The position numbers and the translations under genes were made by a program. Below the pieces are notes generated by a model, which was not told where the DNA came from, did not search any database, and saw nothing but the letters and a program-made list of their open reading frames with translations. From positions 468,487 through 532,486 of the forward strand of contig NZ_JAHKPH010000014.1 of assembly GCF_018860385.1 (NCBI RefSeq): 64,000 nucleotides of DNA. Direction: 5' to 3'. Position 1 is the first letter of the stretch. Every line of letters starts with the position of its first letter. The DNA is from Reinekea forsetii (lineage in GTDB: Bacteria > Pseudomonadota > Gammaproteobacteria > Pseudomonadales > Natronospirillaceae). Positions 4,989-59,689 of the stretch are shown here, piece by piece.

Positions 4989-5904
4989 TCACGCCATTGC
5001 ACCCACGTCCGATTCTTGGCGAGAAATACTCGCCGACCTGTTTGAAATGACCAAGCCCAAAGTGGTGTTTGTTATGCTAATTACCGTTTGGGTTGGTATG
5101 GCACTGACCCCAATCGGCGCTATTCCATGGCTCGCGGTAATAGCAGGAAATATAGGGATTGCAGCATTAGCCGGTGCTGGTGCGGCCTTTAACCATATTC
5201 TTGATGAGCACATTGACCAGAAAATGGCTCGAACCCACAAACGCCCAGTTGCAACGGGTCGTATCAGTCGTAAAGCGGGTCTTATTTTTGCAACGAGCCT
5301 ATCCGTCTTTGGTTTTGTTGTGCTCATGGCATTTACCAATGCGTTGACAGCTTGGCTTACCTTGTTTTCAATGGTTGGGTATGCGCTGGTGTATACGGCG
5401 TTTTTAAAGCGCGCAACGCCACAAAATATTGTCATTGGTGGTTTAGCCGGAGCAATGCCTCCTTTGCTGGGCTGGACAGCGATTACTGGACACATTATGG
5501 GGCTTCCACTGTTGCTGGTTTTAATTATCTTTGCTTGGACACCGCCCCATTTTTGGGCGTTAGCCATTCACCGTAGAGATGATTATGCGCGCGCGGAAAT
5601 TCCTATGATGCCAGTAACCCACGGTATTGCCTTTACTAAAATCCAAGTCTGGCTGTACAGCTGGTTGTTGTTGTCTATCTCGATGCTACCGGTTGCATTG
5701 GGCTCATTAGGATTAATATATGCCGTTTCAGCGCTTATTTTAGGTGCGCGATTCTTGCAGTGGAGTTTTTGGCTGTTGTATGACAAGAAACCAGATGCTG
5801 CGTGGGGTACGTTTAAATACTCAATTACCTATTTAATGGTGTTGTTTGTCATGATGCTGGTAGATCGCTTTACCTGGCCGTGGCTAGCTACTTTCATAAA
5901 TTAA
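4981..5904 (+). CDS. ctaB: Protoheme IX farnesyltransferase (heme O synthase)
   Basis: UbiA-type membrane prenyltransferase that attaches farnesyl to heme B, giving heme O, the substrate of CtaA. The NxxxDxxxD motif for diphosphate/Mg binding is seen at N71, D75 and D79 (NHILDEHID), followed by RTHKRP. The 307 residues and about nine helices fit the family. The start ATG at 4981 lies within the end of ctaA. It is next to SCO with 34 bases between. The alternative name cyoE is used where the oxidase is of bo type; the neighbours here indicate aa3. Confidence 0.95.
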   Translation: MSDHAIAPTSDSWREILADLFEMTKPKVVFVMLITVWVGMALTPIGAIPWLAVIAGNIGIAALAGAGAAFNHILDEHIDQKMARTHKRPVATGRISRKAGLIFATSLSVFGFVVLMAFTNALTAWLTLFSMVGYALVYTAFLKRATPQNIVIGGLAGAMPPLLGWTAITGHIMGLPLLLVLIIFAWTPPHFWALAIHRRDDYARAEIPMMPVTHGIAFTKIQVWLYSWLLLSISMLPVALGSLGLIYAVSALILGARFLQWSFWLLYDKKPDAAWGTFKYSITYLMVLFVMMLVDRFTWPWLATFIN

Positions 5905-5938
5905 ACCACTTAAACGAATAACAGAGCGATATTACAGA

Positions 5939-6601
5939 ATGAGCACACGCACTGCCGCACAAAAGAAATCCATTCGACTGACCGTAGGTATATTGATTTT
6001 TATTATTACCAGCATTGTTGCTGGTATTGTGCTTCAGGTATTAACAACAAAACCAGATGTAAAGTCGGCGTTGTCGGGTTATTCGGTCATTTGGTTTGAA
6101 AAGCCAAGATTAATTCCTGATGTTGCATTGGTCGATCATCAAGGTGCCACTTTTTCAATTGAGCAGTTTAAAGGTCAATGGGATTTAATTAACTTTGGTT
6201 ACACACATTGCCCTGACATTTGCCCAACTAATATGGCCGATATGAACATTGTTCATCGATTAATGACTGAGGCAGGAGAAGCAGACTCGATAAACTTTTG
6301 GATGGTAACGGTTGACCCAGCACGAGATACCGTTGAAAAACTCAGCCTTTATGTACCTTATTTTAATAAAGCCTTTACGGGCCTAACGGGCGATTTGGAT
6401 AACATTCAAGCCATAGCAACGTCGATGAGTGCCGTTTTTTATCAAGAAGGTACTGGAGAAGGGTATACCGTTGCGCACAGTGACAACTATGCGGTAATTG
6501 ACCCAAATGGCCATTTTGTCGCTCTACTAAGACCACCGCATAAACCGCAATCTATGTTTGAAGCGTTGTCGATTATGATGAGCGCTTGGTCTGGAGCCTA
6601 G
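5939..6601 (+). CDS. SCO1/SenC/PrrC family copper chaperone
   Basis: Membrane-tethered thioredoxin-fold protein that metallates the CuA site of oxidase subunit II or reduces its cysteines. One N-terminal helix (about residues 13-35) anchors a periplasmic domain. The copper ligands are visible: CxxxC at C91 and C95 (HCPDICPTN) and a distal His at H180 (VAHSDNY). The length of 220 residues is typical. It closes the oxidase assembly run; the next gene begins 75 bases later and has an unrelated role. Confidence 0.93.
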   Translation: MSTRTAAQKKSIRLTVGILIFIITSIVAGIVLQVLTTKPDVKSALSGYSVIWFEKPRLIPDVALVDHQGATFSIEQFKGQWDLINFGYTHCPDICPTNMADMNIVHRLMTEAGEADSINFWMVTVDPARDTVEKLSLYVPYFNKAFTGLTGDLDNIQAIATSMSAVFYQEGTGEGYTVAHSDNYAVIDPNGHFVALLRPPHKPQSMFEALSIMMSAWSGA

Positions 6602-53738: not shown

Positions 53739-54587
53739 ATGGCATTATTTAAAGTGGCGGCGTTTTCGGACGGTCAACAAGGTGGCAACCCTGCCGGTGT
53801 ATATATTAGTGATCAACACCCAGAAGAATCTGAAATGAGAGCAATAGCGGCCGAGCTAGGATATTCTGAAACAGCGTTTGCGGCCCCTATTGAAAAAGGC
53901 GGGAATGCCCGAAGTTGGCGAGTGCGCTACTTCTCACCTGAATCCGAAGTGCCTTTTTGCGGTCATGCTACTATTGCCTTAGGGGCTGTGTTGTCTAAGG
54001 AGTTTGGACCAGCCGTTTATAAATTGCAGCTTAATAACGCGAATATAACAGTAGAAGCTTCTAAGAACGAAAACCTTTATATCGCAGCGCTTCAATCCCC
54101 TGCTACCCGCAGTCAAATAGCGAGCGATGCATTAGTGCAATCGGCTTTAGGTTTATTTAATTTAGATGCAAACGACTTAGACAGCCGATTGCCGCCTTAC
54201 ATTGCCCATGGTGGTGCCGACCACCTTATTTTATCAATGAAAAATCGTGAACTGTTGGCCGGAATGAGCTACGTGCAAAGCGCAGGTCGAGATTTTATGC
54301 TGGCAAACGGTTTAGTCACCGTTATGCTGGTCTATGCCCAAAGTAATACTGTTTTTCATTCACGAAACCCCTTTGCTTCTGGCGGTGTATATGAGGACCC
54401 AGCAACCGGTGCGGCGTCAGCGGCCTTCGCCGGATATCTACGAGATATAGATTGGCCGCATGAGAATAGTATTCAAATTATTCAAGGAGAAGATATGGGT
54501 GCACGGTCTTTGTTAAAGGTTGAACTGAGCAATGAGAAAGGTGCCTCAGTTCGCGTATCGGGTTCAGCTAGATTTATTGCAGATTGA
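53739..54587 (+). CDS. PhzF family isomerase
   Basis: A 282-residue enzyme of the diaminopimelate-epimerase fold. The catalytic Glu is E44 (GYSETAFA); FCGHATIALG and DPATGAASAAF are the two phosphate-loop-like motifs. True PhzF acts in phenazine synthesis, but single relatives in genomes without phz genes, as here, have unknown or detoxifying roles. A GGAG ribosome site precedes the ATG. It is the last of the closely spaced run starting at the DUF523 gene. Confidence 0.88.
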   Translation: MALFKVAAFSDGQQGGNPAGVYISDQHPEESEMRAIAAELGYSETAFAAPIEKGGNARSWRVRYFSPESEVPFCGHATIALGAVLSKEFGPAVYKLQLNNANITVEASKNENLYIAALQSPATRSQIASDALVQSALGLFNLDANDLDSRLPPYIAHGGADHLILSMKNRELLAGMSYVQSAGRDFMLANGLVTVMLVYAQSNTVFHSRNPFASGGVYEDPATGAASAAFAGYLRDIDWPHENSIQIIQGEDMGARSLLKVELSNEKGASVRVSGSARFIAD

Positions 54588-54630
54588 TTCTGTTATTTTC
54601 AAAAAATTTTTAAAGGACATATCAAATTTA

Positions 54631-55656
54631 ATGATGAGTAGAAAATTGTTGGTAGCTTTAGTTGCCATGATCGGTATCAATGTGCACTCGGCGACTATAG
54701 TTACAGAAGCCTATAATGTCGCTGTTTCAGAGCAGTTTCCAGAATTAAATCTATGGGGATACCGAGTATTACCTGAACCGGGTGCTAAAGAGCTAAAACC
54801 AAATGCAGAACTGGGCGAAGTCGATAGTATATATATTGCCCCTAGGCAAGAGCAACGACCCGTCTTAGGTGAGTATACTTATACGGCTTGGGATTTTTCA
54901 GTCAATGGCAATATTGTCCATACACTGAGTGTTGGCCGAACATGGATACTGCAACGCCGAGATAGCAAGATTGTAATAGATGAAGAGGTTGCACATCGAA
55001 CGAGAGGCTTATTGGCCGCGCAAGTGTTAGGCGCTGATATCTACTATCGACATTTCGTTGATCGGTTTTCGATGAGTTATATGGATCCATTCGTATATTT
55101 TGGTGATCAAGAAAAAAAGAAGTACATGGATTTTTTCAATAATAAGAATATCCTTATTCAGTCACTTGCAAAGTCTAATACAGATTATTTGAATAATGTA
55201 AGTAAAAACATAGTAACCAAGAATAACTGGGTTTCTTATTCTAGACATAAAATTCCTAGCGATCAGTTAGCTTGGACTGTTGAAGACCCTGAATTAAAAT
55301 CAAATTTAGTTTTTGTAAGGGGTCTTGGTGAAAGTACCGATAAATATCTTATACCCAGTGACAATTTAGCCCTACAAGAAAGAACCATCAGTCTTAAAAT
55401 GGATGTTAAAATTCACCGAAAGTCTATGCTAAGAAAAATCACGCTAAACGAACCGGTGTTATTTACCGATTTAGTAACGCTCTATATGGCCTGTAGCTAT
55501 AAATCAGCTGCCGAAACTTTAGATTGGTTGTTCTCCAATCTCACTACAGCGTCTACCCAGCCGAACATAGACGGTGCTCATATTGTTTCAGTGAAAGAGT
55601 TCTTGAACGCGGTATTGCAATGTCAGGAAAAAAATCAAGAAAATATAGCACTTTAA
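54631..55656 (+). CDS. Secreted protein of unknown function
   Basis: 341 residues with a cleavable signal peptide (MMSRKLLVALVAMIGINVHSA). The rest is soluble and shows no family that I know; two cysteines lie near the C-terminus (MACSYK and LQCQEK). Its middle third is clearly AT-richer than the neighbours, with Asn/Lys-heavy codons, which may point to acquisition. AAAGGA lies 13 bases before the ATG, a long spacing. It ends 2 bases from the convergent selD. Confidence 0.65.
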   Translation: MMSRKLLVALVAMIGINVHSATIVTEAYNVAVSEQFPELNLWGYRVLPEPGAKELKPNAELGEVDSIYIAPRQEQRPVLGEYTYTAWDFSVNGNIVHTLSVGRTWILQRRDSKIVIDEEVAHRTRGLLAAQVLGADIYYRHFVDRFSMSYMDPFVYFGDQEKKKYMDFFNNKNILIQSLAKSNTDYLNNVSKNIVTKNNWVSYSRHKIPSDQLAWTVEDPELKSNLVFVRGLGESTDKYLIPSDNLALQERTISLKMDVKIHRKSMLRKITLNEPVLFTDLVTLYMACSYKSAAETLDWLFSNLTTASTQPNIDGAHIVSVKEFLNAVLQCQEKNQENIAL

Positions 55657-55658
55657 TT

Positions 55659-57800
55659 CTAACTCTGAATTAAGTTTATTTTCATTCCATCACTACACCG
55701 CTGAATTTGTCCAATTTTAACCGCGTCTGTTTTTGCGATGATTTCTTTTGCAGTGCTCGGGTCTGTCGATACCAGTAAGCCACCGTTTGTTTGAGGGTCT
55801 ATTAAACAGTTAACTAGCGCTTGCTGTGTATTGTTTAGAGAGCATTCGTTGAGCAACGGCAATAGTTTTGGCATTAGTGAAGAGGTGATGCCTTGATGAC
55901 TCGCGTCGAGTGCTCCAGGTATGAGAGGTAGGTCCTCTACGTTAAGGTTCGCTGCGAGCGATCTGTGTTTTAACATTTCCAAAAGATGGCCTATTAGCCC
56001 AAAACCGGTGACATCGGTTGCCGCATGTATTTTTTCATTCTTTATCGCTAAAAAGAAATCTCGATTTGACTGTTGTAGCACGTGCCAGAGGGCTTCTTTT
56101 GATGGAGCAGGTGCCTTACCTTGAGCATCGGCGGCTAACAGTATGCCGGATCCAAGCGGTTTGTTTAGCAGTAGCCAATCGCCTTCTTCCACGGCGTTCT
56201 TTGGCCAAACCGAATGCCCTATACCGTTCACCACCAACGCGACATGGGTTTCTGCGCCTTCGGTACTGTGCCCACCCACTAAGGTTGTTTCGTGATGCAA
56301 TAGTGTTTCGGTAATGCCCGTCATCAAGCGTTTAAAATCACGTTGAATTAATCGAGGGTGATTAAACGCTAGGTTAACCCATACCTGTGCGCTTGTAGGG
56401 GTATTACCCATGGCGTATAAATCATTGATGGCATGGTGAGTAGCTACGACGCCTAGCCGGTACATATCGTCTGTGAAGGCTCGGAATCCGTCGATACTTT
56501 GCAGCATAGCAACGTCTTGATGCACAGCGGCCACCGCTGCATCTTCAGCAAGTGTTAGGTCTGGCTTTAAAGTTGAATTCGGAAATATGGGCAGTTCTTT
56601 TAGCGTGCTGGTTAACAGCTCCGGTCCAATCTTGCTTCCGCATCCAGCACAGTGCATAGGTTCATTTTCCACGCTATCCATCGCAGACAGTGGCGCATTG
56701 AATTTAGACATAAACGCCTGATCAATACGGTTTTTCCATTGCCAAACCCAGTTTCCTGAAAAACTAACGCCGAATCGTTGCCCTACTGCGCGTGTGTCAC
56801 CTAAAGATATAAGCGATAAAAAGTCAGTCTGTAAATTTAAAGGAGCCATGGCGTTACCCAACATGACAGCACGTAAGTTTTTAACAAGAAAGGGAGCGGA
56901 TCTAACGGCATATACGCCAGACTTAGGTCTTGGCGATTTTAACATAGCGGCCACATCTCCGCAGGCAAACACATCGCCATGAGAAGTGCTTTGCAAAAAT
57001 TCATTGACGGCGATAAAACCATTGTCGTCCGTTGCTAAACCAGACTCGCTAGGCCAAGCAGGGGCCGTTGCGGGTGTACACCAAATAGATTGGTCTACAT
57101 CTAATTTTTGCTCATGAGTCGACACAATCGAAGATTGATGTACTTCAGCCACACGAAAATGACTAACAACCGAAACATGAGCGTTAGCCAGTGCCTTTTC
57201 AGCTATTTTCCGAGTGCCGGATTTGACGTGCGGCAAGATGCACTCGCCGGCATGCACTAATGAAAGATGAATAGATTTGTTGGACTGTTTAAACCGATGG
57301 GCAATGGCCAGTGTCATTTCAATACCCGCAGCACCCGCGCCAACAATGGCCCAATGCGGTTTTTTCTGAGCGTTGCATTTATCGAGTAATGTTTGCCACG
57401 TTTGGGTTAATTGACTCACAGGCTTAACACCTAGAGCAAACTCAGCGGCACCAGGTACACCAAGATTAGGTGTTGATCCGGTGTTAATAGAAACTTTATC
57501 GTAGCGAATATTGGCTTGACCAATAATTTTGATTTCTTTTTTATTGAGATCTAACCCACATACTCGACCATGAATTAATCGAACATTAGCGCGTTGGCAG
57601 AGCAGGTTTAAGTCAATATGGATATCGTCGAGTGAATAGTGACCAGCGATGTAACCGGGCAGCATTCCCGAATAGGGCGTTTGGAGTGTGTCTGTAATTA
57701 AAGTGAGCCGAGCATTCTGCAAGGGCTTCATTGCAAGCATGCGAATTGCTAGAGCGTGGCAATGACCGCCACCAATAAACACAATGTCACGTTCATGCAT
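55659..57800 (-). CDS. selD: Selenide, water dikinase fused to NADH dehydrogenase-like flavoprotein
   Basis: A 713-residue fusion. Residues 1 to about 365 form a pyridine nucleotide-disulfide oxidoreductase domain (FIGGGHCHALA at the FAD site, VGAGAAGIEM at the NAD site, FACGDVAAM). Residues about 375-713 are SelD, which makes selenophosphate from selenide and ATP. The SelD active loop reads CAGCGSKIG: the position of E. coli C17 is Cys (codon TGC, not TGA), C19 is Ser and K20 is kept. The frame extends to 57896, but ATG 57800 begins the flavoprotein domain. Its start overlaps the upstream membrane gene by 8 bases. Confidence 0.93.
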   Translation of the reverse strand: MHERDIVFIGGGHCHALAIRMLAMKPLQNARLTLITDTLQTPYSGMLPGYIAGHYSLDDIHIDLNLLCQRANVRLIHGRVCGLDLNKKEIKIIGQANIRYDKVSINTGSTPNLGVPGAAEFALGVKPVSQLTQTWQTLLDKCNAQKKPHWAIVGAGAAGIEMTLAIAHRFKQSNKSIHLSLVHAGECILPHVKSGTRKIAEKALANAHVSVVSHFRVAEVHQSSIVSTHEQKLDVDQSIWCTPATAPAWPSESGLATDDNGFIAVNEFLQSTSHGDVFACGDVAAMLKSPRPKSGVYAVRSAPFLVKNLRAVMLGNAMAPLNLQTDFLSLISLGDTRAVGQRFGVSFSGNWVWQWKNRIDQAFMSKFNAPLSAMDSVENEPMHCAGCGSKIGPELLTSTLKELPIFPNSTLKPDLTLAEDAAVAAVHQDVAMLQSIDGFRAFTDDMYRLGVVATHHAINDLYAMGNTPTSAQVWVNLAFNHPRLIQRDFKRLMTGITETLLHHETTLVGGHSTEGAETHVALVVNGIGHSVWPKNAVEEGDWLLLNKPLGSGILLAADAQGKAPAPSKEALWHVLQQSNRDFFLAIKNEKIHAATDVTGFGLIGHLLEMLKHRSLAANLNVEDLPLIPGALDASHQGITSSLMPKLLPLLNECSLNNTQQALVNCLIDPQTNGGLLVSTDPSTAKEIIAKTDAVKIGQIQRCSDGMKINLIQS

Positions 57801-58572
57801 AATTAGCTGATCTATTAAATAAGTTGAAAGTGACTTTATAACCCAGCCACAGAGTGGCCATTGGAATAATGATGCTTTTAAATAACATGCCGACAATGAG
57901 CGTCACCACAGAACTTGAAATTTTTGCGCCCAAATCTTCATCGGCAATTACCGGTGCATCTGAACCAAATATAAGCTCACTCAAATTTATTTGTGAGATG
58001 CTCTCCTTTAACCGCTCAACGACGGCAATAGTGGCTTCTAAAACAGACAGGGCTTGTTCACCGGTAGCCTCAAAATAAAGCGTATCAAACAGCCAAACTA
58101 AGAAGATTTGCACAACTAATATAAACCGAATAAAAACCGCAACCAGAATCCAACGAAGTAGGGTTTGAGATGTGCTGGGCTTTGCCCAAATTAGAATCGT
58201 GGCTATCAAACACACAGCGGTAAAAACGGTTTTTAAAGTAACCGAAATAGTTAACAGTAACAGCACTTGTGAAATACCCAAAGCGGTTAGGGTTATCAAC
58301 AACAAACCAGAAAACCGCTCAACCAAATCGTTGACGGGGTCTAATATTTCACCAATAGAAACACTGGCAACCCCAATGCCGATATCGGCCGACTGAATAA
58401 CCGATATAACACCATTCAGTGTGCGGACAACACCAAACACAATGGCGTTGCTGTTGATGCTGTCAGATAAAAATTGCTGCGCCATTGCGTCAATCTGAGG
58501 TAGCCAGTTCATAACGACCATAAAAAGAAGTACAACGCTAATGGCCATTTTTTGTGTGTGGTTGAATAACAT
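57793..58572 (-). CDS. Uncharacterised integral membrane protein in selenium operon
   Basis: 259 residues with a first hydrophobic helix at about 9-25, a helical periplasmic-like stretch, then about four more helices (roughly 88-110, 112-130, 138-165, 222-248) separated by an acidic loop. I do not recognise the family; it is not YedE-like. It starts 4 bases after mnmH and overlaps selD by 8 bases, so it is encoded between two selenium enzymes in one message. Transport of a selenium species is possible but only inferred from this position. Confidence 0.75.
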   Translation of the reverse strand: MLFNHTQKMAISVVLLFMVVMNWLPQIDAMAQQFLSDSINSNAIVFGVVRTLNGVISVIQSADIGIGVASVSIGEILDPVNDLVERFSGLLLITLTALGISQVLLLLTISVTLKTVFTAVCLIATILIWAKPSTSQTLLRWILVAVFIRFILVVQIFLVWLFDTLYFEATGEQALSVLEATIAVVERLKESISQINLSELIFGSDAPVIADEDLGAKISSSVVTLIVGMLFKSIIIPMATLWLGYKVTFNLFNRSANYA

Positions 58573-58576
58573 AAAG

Positions 58577-59689
58577 TTACCTAGTGGCTAACCATTCTAG
58601 GATGTCAGAATGCGACCCTTTGAATATGGTTTTATCAGCCTTTTGTTGGTATTGATATTGATACATAGGGTCATAGTAATCGTTTAATAACACTTCGATT
58701 AACGCATCGAACCCTGTCCAATCGTTTTGGCTTTTTAACGAAACTATCGCTGAATCTAGCATGTCATTGAGCAGATTAAAGCGAACACCGCCCAATCGTT
58801 TTTTTATTCTCGACACTGCGTTTCTGATAAAATCATCGAGCATTTGGTAGGCATGATCAGATTCTGCCTTTTGAAAGTGGTCAAAAGCGTCCATAAAATA
58901 GTCTTGCCTTATGCGTCTGACTCGCTCTTCAAAAGGGGCTTCCAGTAATACATTATTGGCGTCTTTTGCAGCATCTAGGTATTCAGGTAACACGGCAATT
59001 CTGCCTATGAGGCGGGACTCATCTTCAATCAACACAGGTGCACTGCTTAATTGCTTGCGCTTTAACCAGGCCACTGACCATGCATTTTCAAAATCTATTT
59101 GTGAGGGTTGCGGCTGCGTTGTTTTTCCAAAAGCACTGCCTCGATGTTTCGCTAAGCCTTCTAGGTCGATCGAGTGTGGCCAATCGTGTATGACCTCTGT
59201 CTTTCCTGAGCCGGTCGCGCCGGATAACACCATGAATGCGCCTGACTCGACCCGTTCGTGTAATTGCTGCAATAAAAAGCCCCGCATGGCTTTATAGCCA
59301 CCTTGAATAAAGGGACGGTTTATACCGGCTTCCGCTAACCATTGCTGTGTAATACGAGACCGCAAACCGCCGCGAAAGCAATACAAAACACCTTTAGGGT
59401 ATTGTTCTGCGAAGTCAATCCAGGCGTTGATGCGTTGTTGTTTTACGTCGCCACAAACAAGGCGGTGACCTAAGTCTTGTGCTGCTTGAGCACCTTGGTC
59501 TTTATAGCAAGTGCCGACTAGCTCACGTTCTTGGTCGTTCATTAAAGGGGCATTAATACTGGTTGGAAACGCCCCCTTGGAAAACTCGATCGGTGCTCGA
59601 ACATCCAGTAATGGGGTATCAGATAAAAACAGTTGCGCGTAGTCGGTTATGGCCTGCAAGGTAATAGCTCTTAAGATATGAAATGCCAT
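58577..59689 (-). CDS. mnmH: tRNA 2-selenouridine synthase
   Basis: Replaces sulfur in 2-thiouridine 34 of tRNA with selenium, using selenophosphate from SelD. The 370 residues have an N-terminal rhodanese domain with the active Cys at C104 (YCFRGGLRS) and a C-terminal P-loop domain (GATGSGKT, 157-164). E. coli MnmH (SelU/YbbB) is 364 residues. It heads the minus-strand operon mnmH-membrane protein-selD. Confidence 0.96.
   Translation of the reverse strand: MAFHILRAITLQAITDYAQLFLSDTPLLDVRAPIEFSKGAFPTSINAPLMNDQERELVGTCYKDQGAQAAQDLGHRLVCGDVKQQRINAWIDFAEQYPKGVLYCFRGGLRSRITQQWLAEAGINRPFIQGGYKAMRGFLLQQLHERVESGAFMVLSGATGSGKTEVIHDWPHSIDLEGLAKHRGSAFGKTTQPQPSQIDFENAWSVAWLKRKQLSSAPVLIEDESRLIGRIAVLPEYLDAAKDANNVLLEAPFEERVRRIRQDYFMDAFDHFQKAESDHAYQMLDDFIRNAVSRIKKRLGGVRFNLLNDMLDSAIVSLKSQNDWTGFDALIEVLLNDYYDPMYQYQYQQKADKTIFKGSHSDILEWLATR

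Follow-up and report, generated by a model that had tools for sequence, protein, structure and literature searches.

Why should the gene of a membrane protein lie between two genes of selenium metabolism? In the Reinekea forsetii DNA analysed here (64,000 nucleotides, referred to as the window) a 259-residue membrane protein, which we call MEM, is encoded between mnmH and a gene for a flavoprotein–SelD fusion (FAD-SelD), all on one strand. MEM is one of a widespread proteobacterial family of membrane proteins that share a near-invariant motif; taken as a whole, this family shows no tie to selenium, and the members that adjoin mnmH form a single clade. Because of these family-wide facts of neighbourhood, co-occurrence and descent, we favour, with a probability of about one half, the capture by this operon of a general envelope protein without a special selenium role. 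The trio comprises the following features.

58577..59689, minus strand: mnmH, tRNA 2-selenouridine(34) synthase, 370 aa (NCBIfam PRK11784.1-3, 482 bits, cut-off 361)
57793..58572, minus strand: MEM, 259-aa membrane protein without a curated family, read as four transmembrane (TM) helices with both termini inside
55659..57800, minus strand: FAD-SelD, 713 aa from the ATG at 57800 (NCBIfam TIGR03169, N-terminal-to-SelD, 465 bits, cut-off 310; TIGR00476, SelD part, 221 bits, cut-off 125)
57793..57800, minus strand: overlap of the MEM 3' end with the FAD-SelD start, 8 bases in the sequence, as also in Neptunomonas antarctica

The selenium trio and its relatives

The first-pass annotation had described a 4-base gap between mnmH and MEM and an 8-base overlap of MEM with FAD-SelD, and both are exact in the sequence of the window. 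It had also stated that both flanking enzymes handle selenium, and this is borne out, as MnmH, SelD and the TIGR03169 part of the fusion all pass their NCBIfam cut-offs; MnmH and SelD do so within one gene run, as in operons of the selenouridine (SeU) trait. The open reading frame (ORF) lister had started FAD-SelD at an upstream TTG, giving 745 aa in place of the 713 aa from the ATG. As for the further claim that the three genes are one message, the tight packing stands, and from this spacing a single transcript of mnmH, MEM and FAD-SelD is likely. A scan finds 8 promoter-like sites, about as many as chance would give (7.8), and 8 terminator-like sites where 5.1 (standard deviation 2.2) are expected, one of them on the minus strand inside MEM.

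The arrangement is not due to chance, since mnmH adjoins MEM in all six genomes in which this MEM subfamily was found. FAD-SelD comes directly next in five of them, the full trio being present in the window, in N. antarctica and in three further genomes of the window's genus (G662, G663 and G664); in the sixth, G284, MEM follows mnmH, FAD-SelD is gone from the locus and a separate SelD is present in the genome. Another member of the genus, G225, has mnmH directly before FAD-SelD without MEM, with flanking genes in common with G284. The copy in N. antarctica is the closest named MEM, and MEM (67% identity) has diverged between the two species at a pace like that of its neighbours mnmH (68%) and FAD-SelD (64%). 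With a dN/dS of about 0.05 (0.005/0.092) between the window and G663 in addition, these comparisons mark MEM as a kept, working gene under purifying selection.

Spread and neighbourhoods of the family

No named family accounts for MEM. The best Pfam match (E 0.058) is to an unrelated family, NCBIfam gives no match at E up to 1, and the best hits of a PDB sequence search (E 0.042 for MEM, 0.021 for the profile) were judged chance. Pfam searches with MEM, with a set of 58 family sequences and with 10 longer relatives, and PADLOC on the 58, yield scattered weak matches, none above cut-off, those of the longer relatives being mostly of coiled-coil type. The family is nevertheless conserved and is represented in Gammaproteobacteria, other Pseudomonadota, Thermodesulfobacteriota and Campylobacterota. 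It is matched at E 0.001 or better in 42 of 293 genomes of the order, the window's genome included. In a wider draw from the phylum the family profile matches 27 of 398 genomes, 20 of these in one family (f78). A scan of genome contigs gave 63 loci, among them representatives of Kangiella, Zooshikella, Granulosicoccaceae, Sedimenticola, Lysobacterales, Desulfobacteraceae and a Sulfurospirillum. Three plasmid records match, with no selenium genes annotated in the two plasmid contexts read, and no match was found in phage records. We note that the MEM gene of a Flavobacteriaceae-labelled contig is almost identical to one of Granulosicoccaceae (L081 and L082), and the contig is probably a misbinned part of a metagenome-assembled genome.

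Selenium genes are rare beside these loci. When 93 loci were searched with mnmH, FAD and SelD, mnmH was found in three and FAD-SelD in two of those three; 17 further loci of the phylum have no labelled selenium gene (0/17), and among four further family loci mnmH adjoins MEM in L173, L174 and L175 and not in L178. The total is 6 of 114 loci, some genomes being counted twice, and the six mnmH-linked genes form one clade with a support of 100/99 in a 107-row tree. MEM and mnmH co-occur no more than chance would allow across the 293 genomes of the order, mnmH being present, among the matches listed, in 22 of 42 genomes with MEM and 148 of 251 others (odds ratio 0.77, p = 0.5). Homologues found mostly away from selenium genes are what the first-pass annotation had named as telling against its selenium hypothesis, and this is where most of those read lie; accordingly, a selenium role may be considered for this single marine bacterial group and for no other.

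Elsewhere the family keeps varied company. At 54 of 105 loci no gene on the same strand lies within 60 bases of MEM; contig edges are scored as none here, G284 is counted twice, and some loci of the order search and the contig scan come from the same genome. The flanks of L001–L030 extend at most 1.5 kb, and some contigs end beside MEM, including L003, which is sister to the selenium clade. The scan covered 48 of the 61 operon-like neighbours; the other 13 are the six selenium genes of the clade, four ORFs that are short or truncated and, in L138, L140 and L147, the downstream genes. The Pfam tally, in which 25 of 49 families are shown, is led by EamA (6), Trp/Tyr-tRNA synthetase (4, all TrpS by NCBIfam) and class-V aminotransferase (3), followed by FolE, cyclophilin and L-PSP (2 each) and other families shown once each. 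Tight, clade-specific links to unrelated genes are normal for this family, and the selenium link in the window therefore proves little. In seven loci of f78 (L132–L136, L139 and L143) MEM comes after a C39 peptidase-TPR gene; the one copy scanned belongs to the PA2778 family (NCBIfam), and in six of the seven a DUF6627-type gene precedes it.

We propose that a single insertion, in the ancestor of the Neptunomonas-like group (so called because N. antarctica has the closest named MEM), placed a member of this unnamed inner-membrane family between mnmH and FAD-SelD, and that MEM would have been translated with both enzymes since then; its co-expression with the selenouridine genes would be incidental or regulatory.

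Motif, predicted topology and fold

58393..58425, minus strand: MEM residues 50-60, first half of the hairpin (R50, N53, S57, Q60)
58309..58353, minus strand: MEM residues 74-88, GEILDPVNDLVERFS, second half of the hairpin

The 58 sequences share twelve invariant columns, and 11 of these fall in N53..S57..Q60 and in GEILDPVNDLVERFS, where the invariant residues are G74, D78, P79, N81, D82, E85, F87 and S88; R50 is kept in at least 90%. In a wider set of 62 sequences six columns are still invariant (N53, S57, P79, D82, E85 and P237 in MEM numbering) and others reach at least 90%. Cysteine does not exceed 30% in any column of the 58.

AlphaFold2 models both MEM (pLDDT 86.2, pTM 0.78) and a Kangiella member (pLDDT 84.7, pTM 0.76) as all-helical, with fair to good confidence. 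Averaged over the family, Lys and Arg cluster at both termini and at 126-140, and the net charge is negative at 26-90 and 166-220, with locally positive segments at 41-50 and 206-215. We read MEM as having four TM helices (about 9-24, 112-130, 141-163 and 222-246) with both ends inside, which would leave two periplasmic helical parts, the conserved hairpin lying in the first. Residues 89-111 are fairly hydrophobic and could form a fifth TM helix, although charge and hydropathy suggest four; were this segment to cross the membrane, the hairpin would stay outside and the second loop would move inside. The first periplasmic part (positions 28-88, with the motif) is nearly fixed in length at 61–65 residues, whereas the second ranges between 58 and 185. 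From the helix spacing and the turn at 66-70, rather than from coordinates, the polar rows R50-N53-S57-Q60 and E75-D78-N81/D82-E85 are expected to lie opposite one another.

These facing rows may be the working site of a small envelope unit that, in whatever operon it is found, would bind or pass a small solute, an ion or a lipid at the hairpin; this binding or passage step is a guess, possible rather than probable. Structure searches gave no meaningful match among solved or viral structures. Foldseek returns no match at E 0.001 or better, either against the PDB (MEM and Kangiella models) or against BFVD (one model), and the best VIA-align scores (Z 10.8 and 10.3, both IncA) are in a range that the tool grades as a common helical arrangement, the other rows being long coiled coils and ABC-exporter helices.

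The slot after mnmH and comparison with known systems

Among the matches listed, to which all counts of this slot refer, mnmH lies before FAD-SelD on one strand and within 10 kb in 34 genomes of the order. Twenty-one of these slots are empty (20–168 bases between the profile matches), one, in the window's genome (G000), holds MEM, and 12 hold 3–10 kb. In every one of the 12 long slots (L181–L192) mnmH is followed within 0.5 kb by a binding protein gene, and then by those of a PhnC-like ATPase and a PhnE-like permease. Four of the binding proteins were scanned, and all match TIGR04553, the profile of a putative selenate ABC transporter (370–393 bits, cut-off 250); each of the remaining eight is 64–74% identical to one of these four. 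For the fetched loci, gene calls came from a longest-ORF script, which can err in GC-rich DNA; the importer that it missed in L184 and L188 was recovered by tblastn. Other genes do enter the slot region, since five of the 12 importer slots have 0.8–6.8 kb of room between the permease and FAD-SelD and three (L188 at 5236-6009, L189 and L190) contain a PhzF-like gene there. The 21 genomes with mnmH directly before FAD-SelD and no MEM, one of them of the window's genus, support capture, and their empty slots mean that nothing is needed at that place there.

The leading alternative, which we regard as somewhat unlikely, is that in this lineage MEM moves a selenium oxyanion or a reduced selenium species inward for the FAD domain and SelD, in place of the ABC importer. 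The slot facts keep this idea alive: MEM occupies the position that the binding protein, ATPase and permease take in 12 genomes, and G658, of the window's own family, has the importer right after mnmH, but with FAD-SelD not following it. It is also in keeping with the coupling of the trio in five genomes and with the selenium inventory, in which SelA is unmatched in seven genomes of the window's family and SelB and YedE have no match over cut-off in seven of its genus; the only selenium use seen in the window's genome is selenouridine, genes for selenium cofactors not having been searched for. Against it are the lack of a link to selenium in the family as a whole, the empty slots (21/34), the absence of a conserved cysteine and the lack of a meaningful Foldseek or VIA-align match to a selenium transporter. 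The suggestion of the first-pass annotation that MEM imports or releases a selenium species is partly supported: the family as a whole does not bear it out (6/114 loci), and it survives as import in this lineage only.

Several observations weigh against capture. The first occupant of the filled slots is the importer in 12 of 13, with MEM the thirteenth. MEM-family genes occur anywhere in the genome in 10 of 21 empty-slot genomes and in none of 12 importer-slot genomes (p = 0.005); this anticorrelation, which also speaks for import, was noticed post hoc without removing relatedness, and counted by family it becomes 4/6 against 0/6, one family being in both groups (p = 0.06). MEM stays beside mnmH in G284 despite the loss of FAD-SelD from that locus, and the MEM subfamily of the selenium clade has conserved stretches of its own. 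Slightly less likely than import as such is the broader proposal that a one-gene membrane protein took over selenium uptake in the importer's slot and that the wider family consists of undescribed small-solute carriers or channels; if true, these would be of a kind not yet described.

Release or tolerance, in which MEM would export an excess or toxic selenium species made beside FAD-SelD or shield the envelope from it, is improbable: its membership of the operon is consistent with such a role, whereas the family is unlinked to selenium, shows no meaningful transporter fold match and has no conserved cysteine. The idea, also in the first-pass annotation, that MEM anchors selenophosphate production at the membrane beside the flavoprotein domain draws on gene adjacency and overlap and is very improbable, because the invariant residues are predicted to be periplasmic, away from both enzymes, and, in the four-TM reading, little of the protein is left in the cytoplasm (stretches of about 8, 10 and 13 residues).

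Some further genes of these loci are recorded here. A second, stand-alone kind of SelD (429–449 bits) is encoded in G662:C5, G664:C22 and G284:C24, with no SelB over cut-off in these three genomes and no SelA match in G284. In the window, a PhzF-like gene (53739-54587, plus strand), to which those in L188, L189 and L190 are related, is found past FAD-SelD at a distance of about 1 kb and on the opposite strand, and the stop codon of a 374-aa protein gene (54532-55656, plus strand) is 2 bases from the convergent FAD-SelD stop; an NCBIfam search with this protein gave no match and Pfam only one below threshold. In four genomes of the genus, the window's not among them, an MFS-type transporter gene is directly upstream of mnmH:

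L148, 9384-10607: MFS-type gene, by Pfam
L149, 5685-6992: MFS-type gene, by sequence similarity
L173, 9819-11120: MFS-type gene, by sequence similarity
L174, 6772-7992: MFS-type gene, by sequence similarity

Among known systems, Tweety homologues and prominins (prominin criteria as given in part of PMC11405016) resemble the predicted shape of MEM, with a pair of large helical loops outside the membrane and short ones inside, but have five TM helices where four are predicted here, with Foldseek E-values of 0.04 or worse and no PDB sequence match. Several TTYH chains come up when the Kangiella model is searched with Foldseek (E 0.04–0.2); neither TTYH nor YedE chains are among the VIA-align rows shown, an absence that proves nothing, and a literature search found no paper with the bacterial tweety or prominin phrases tried. 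The resemblance is a lead only. YedE (TIGR04112), a candidate selenium transporter, is like MEM a membrane protein beside selenium genes, but whereas it typically has ten TM helices and a conserved cysteine, according to a passage of PMC5322559, MEM has about four, no conserved cysteine and no profile match, in line with the earlier judgement that it is not YedE-like. Part of PMC2432076 describes ybbB (mnmH) as often in one operon with selD and a COG1252-SelD fusion as known; the window has the same two enzymes of this SeU trait and adds an unrelated membrane gene between them.

A further comparison is the TIGR04553 importer, which in 12 of the order's genomes takes the place that MEM has behind mnmH, although MEM is a single gene of another family, with neither ATPase nor binding protein. 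A literature search found no paper mentioning TIGR04553, and the papers it gave for Neptunomonas and selenium were judged off-topic from their listing; an ABC-type ATPase near orphan selD genes is mentioned in a portion of PMC5029168, and a passage of a review (PMC9312934) states that no high-affinity selenium transport system is known. The slot after mnmH offers two genetically simple candidates, MEM in this lineage only and the TIGR04553-type ABC set, of which the latter is a clean candidate to be the selenium importer that is still missing.

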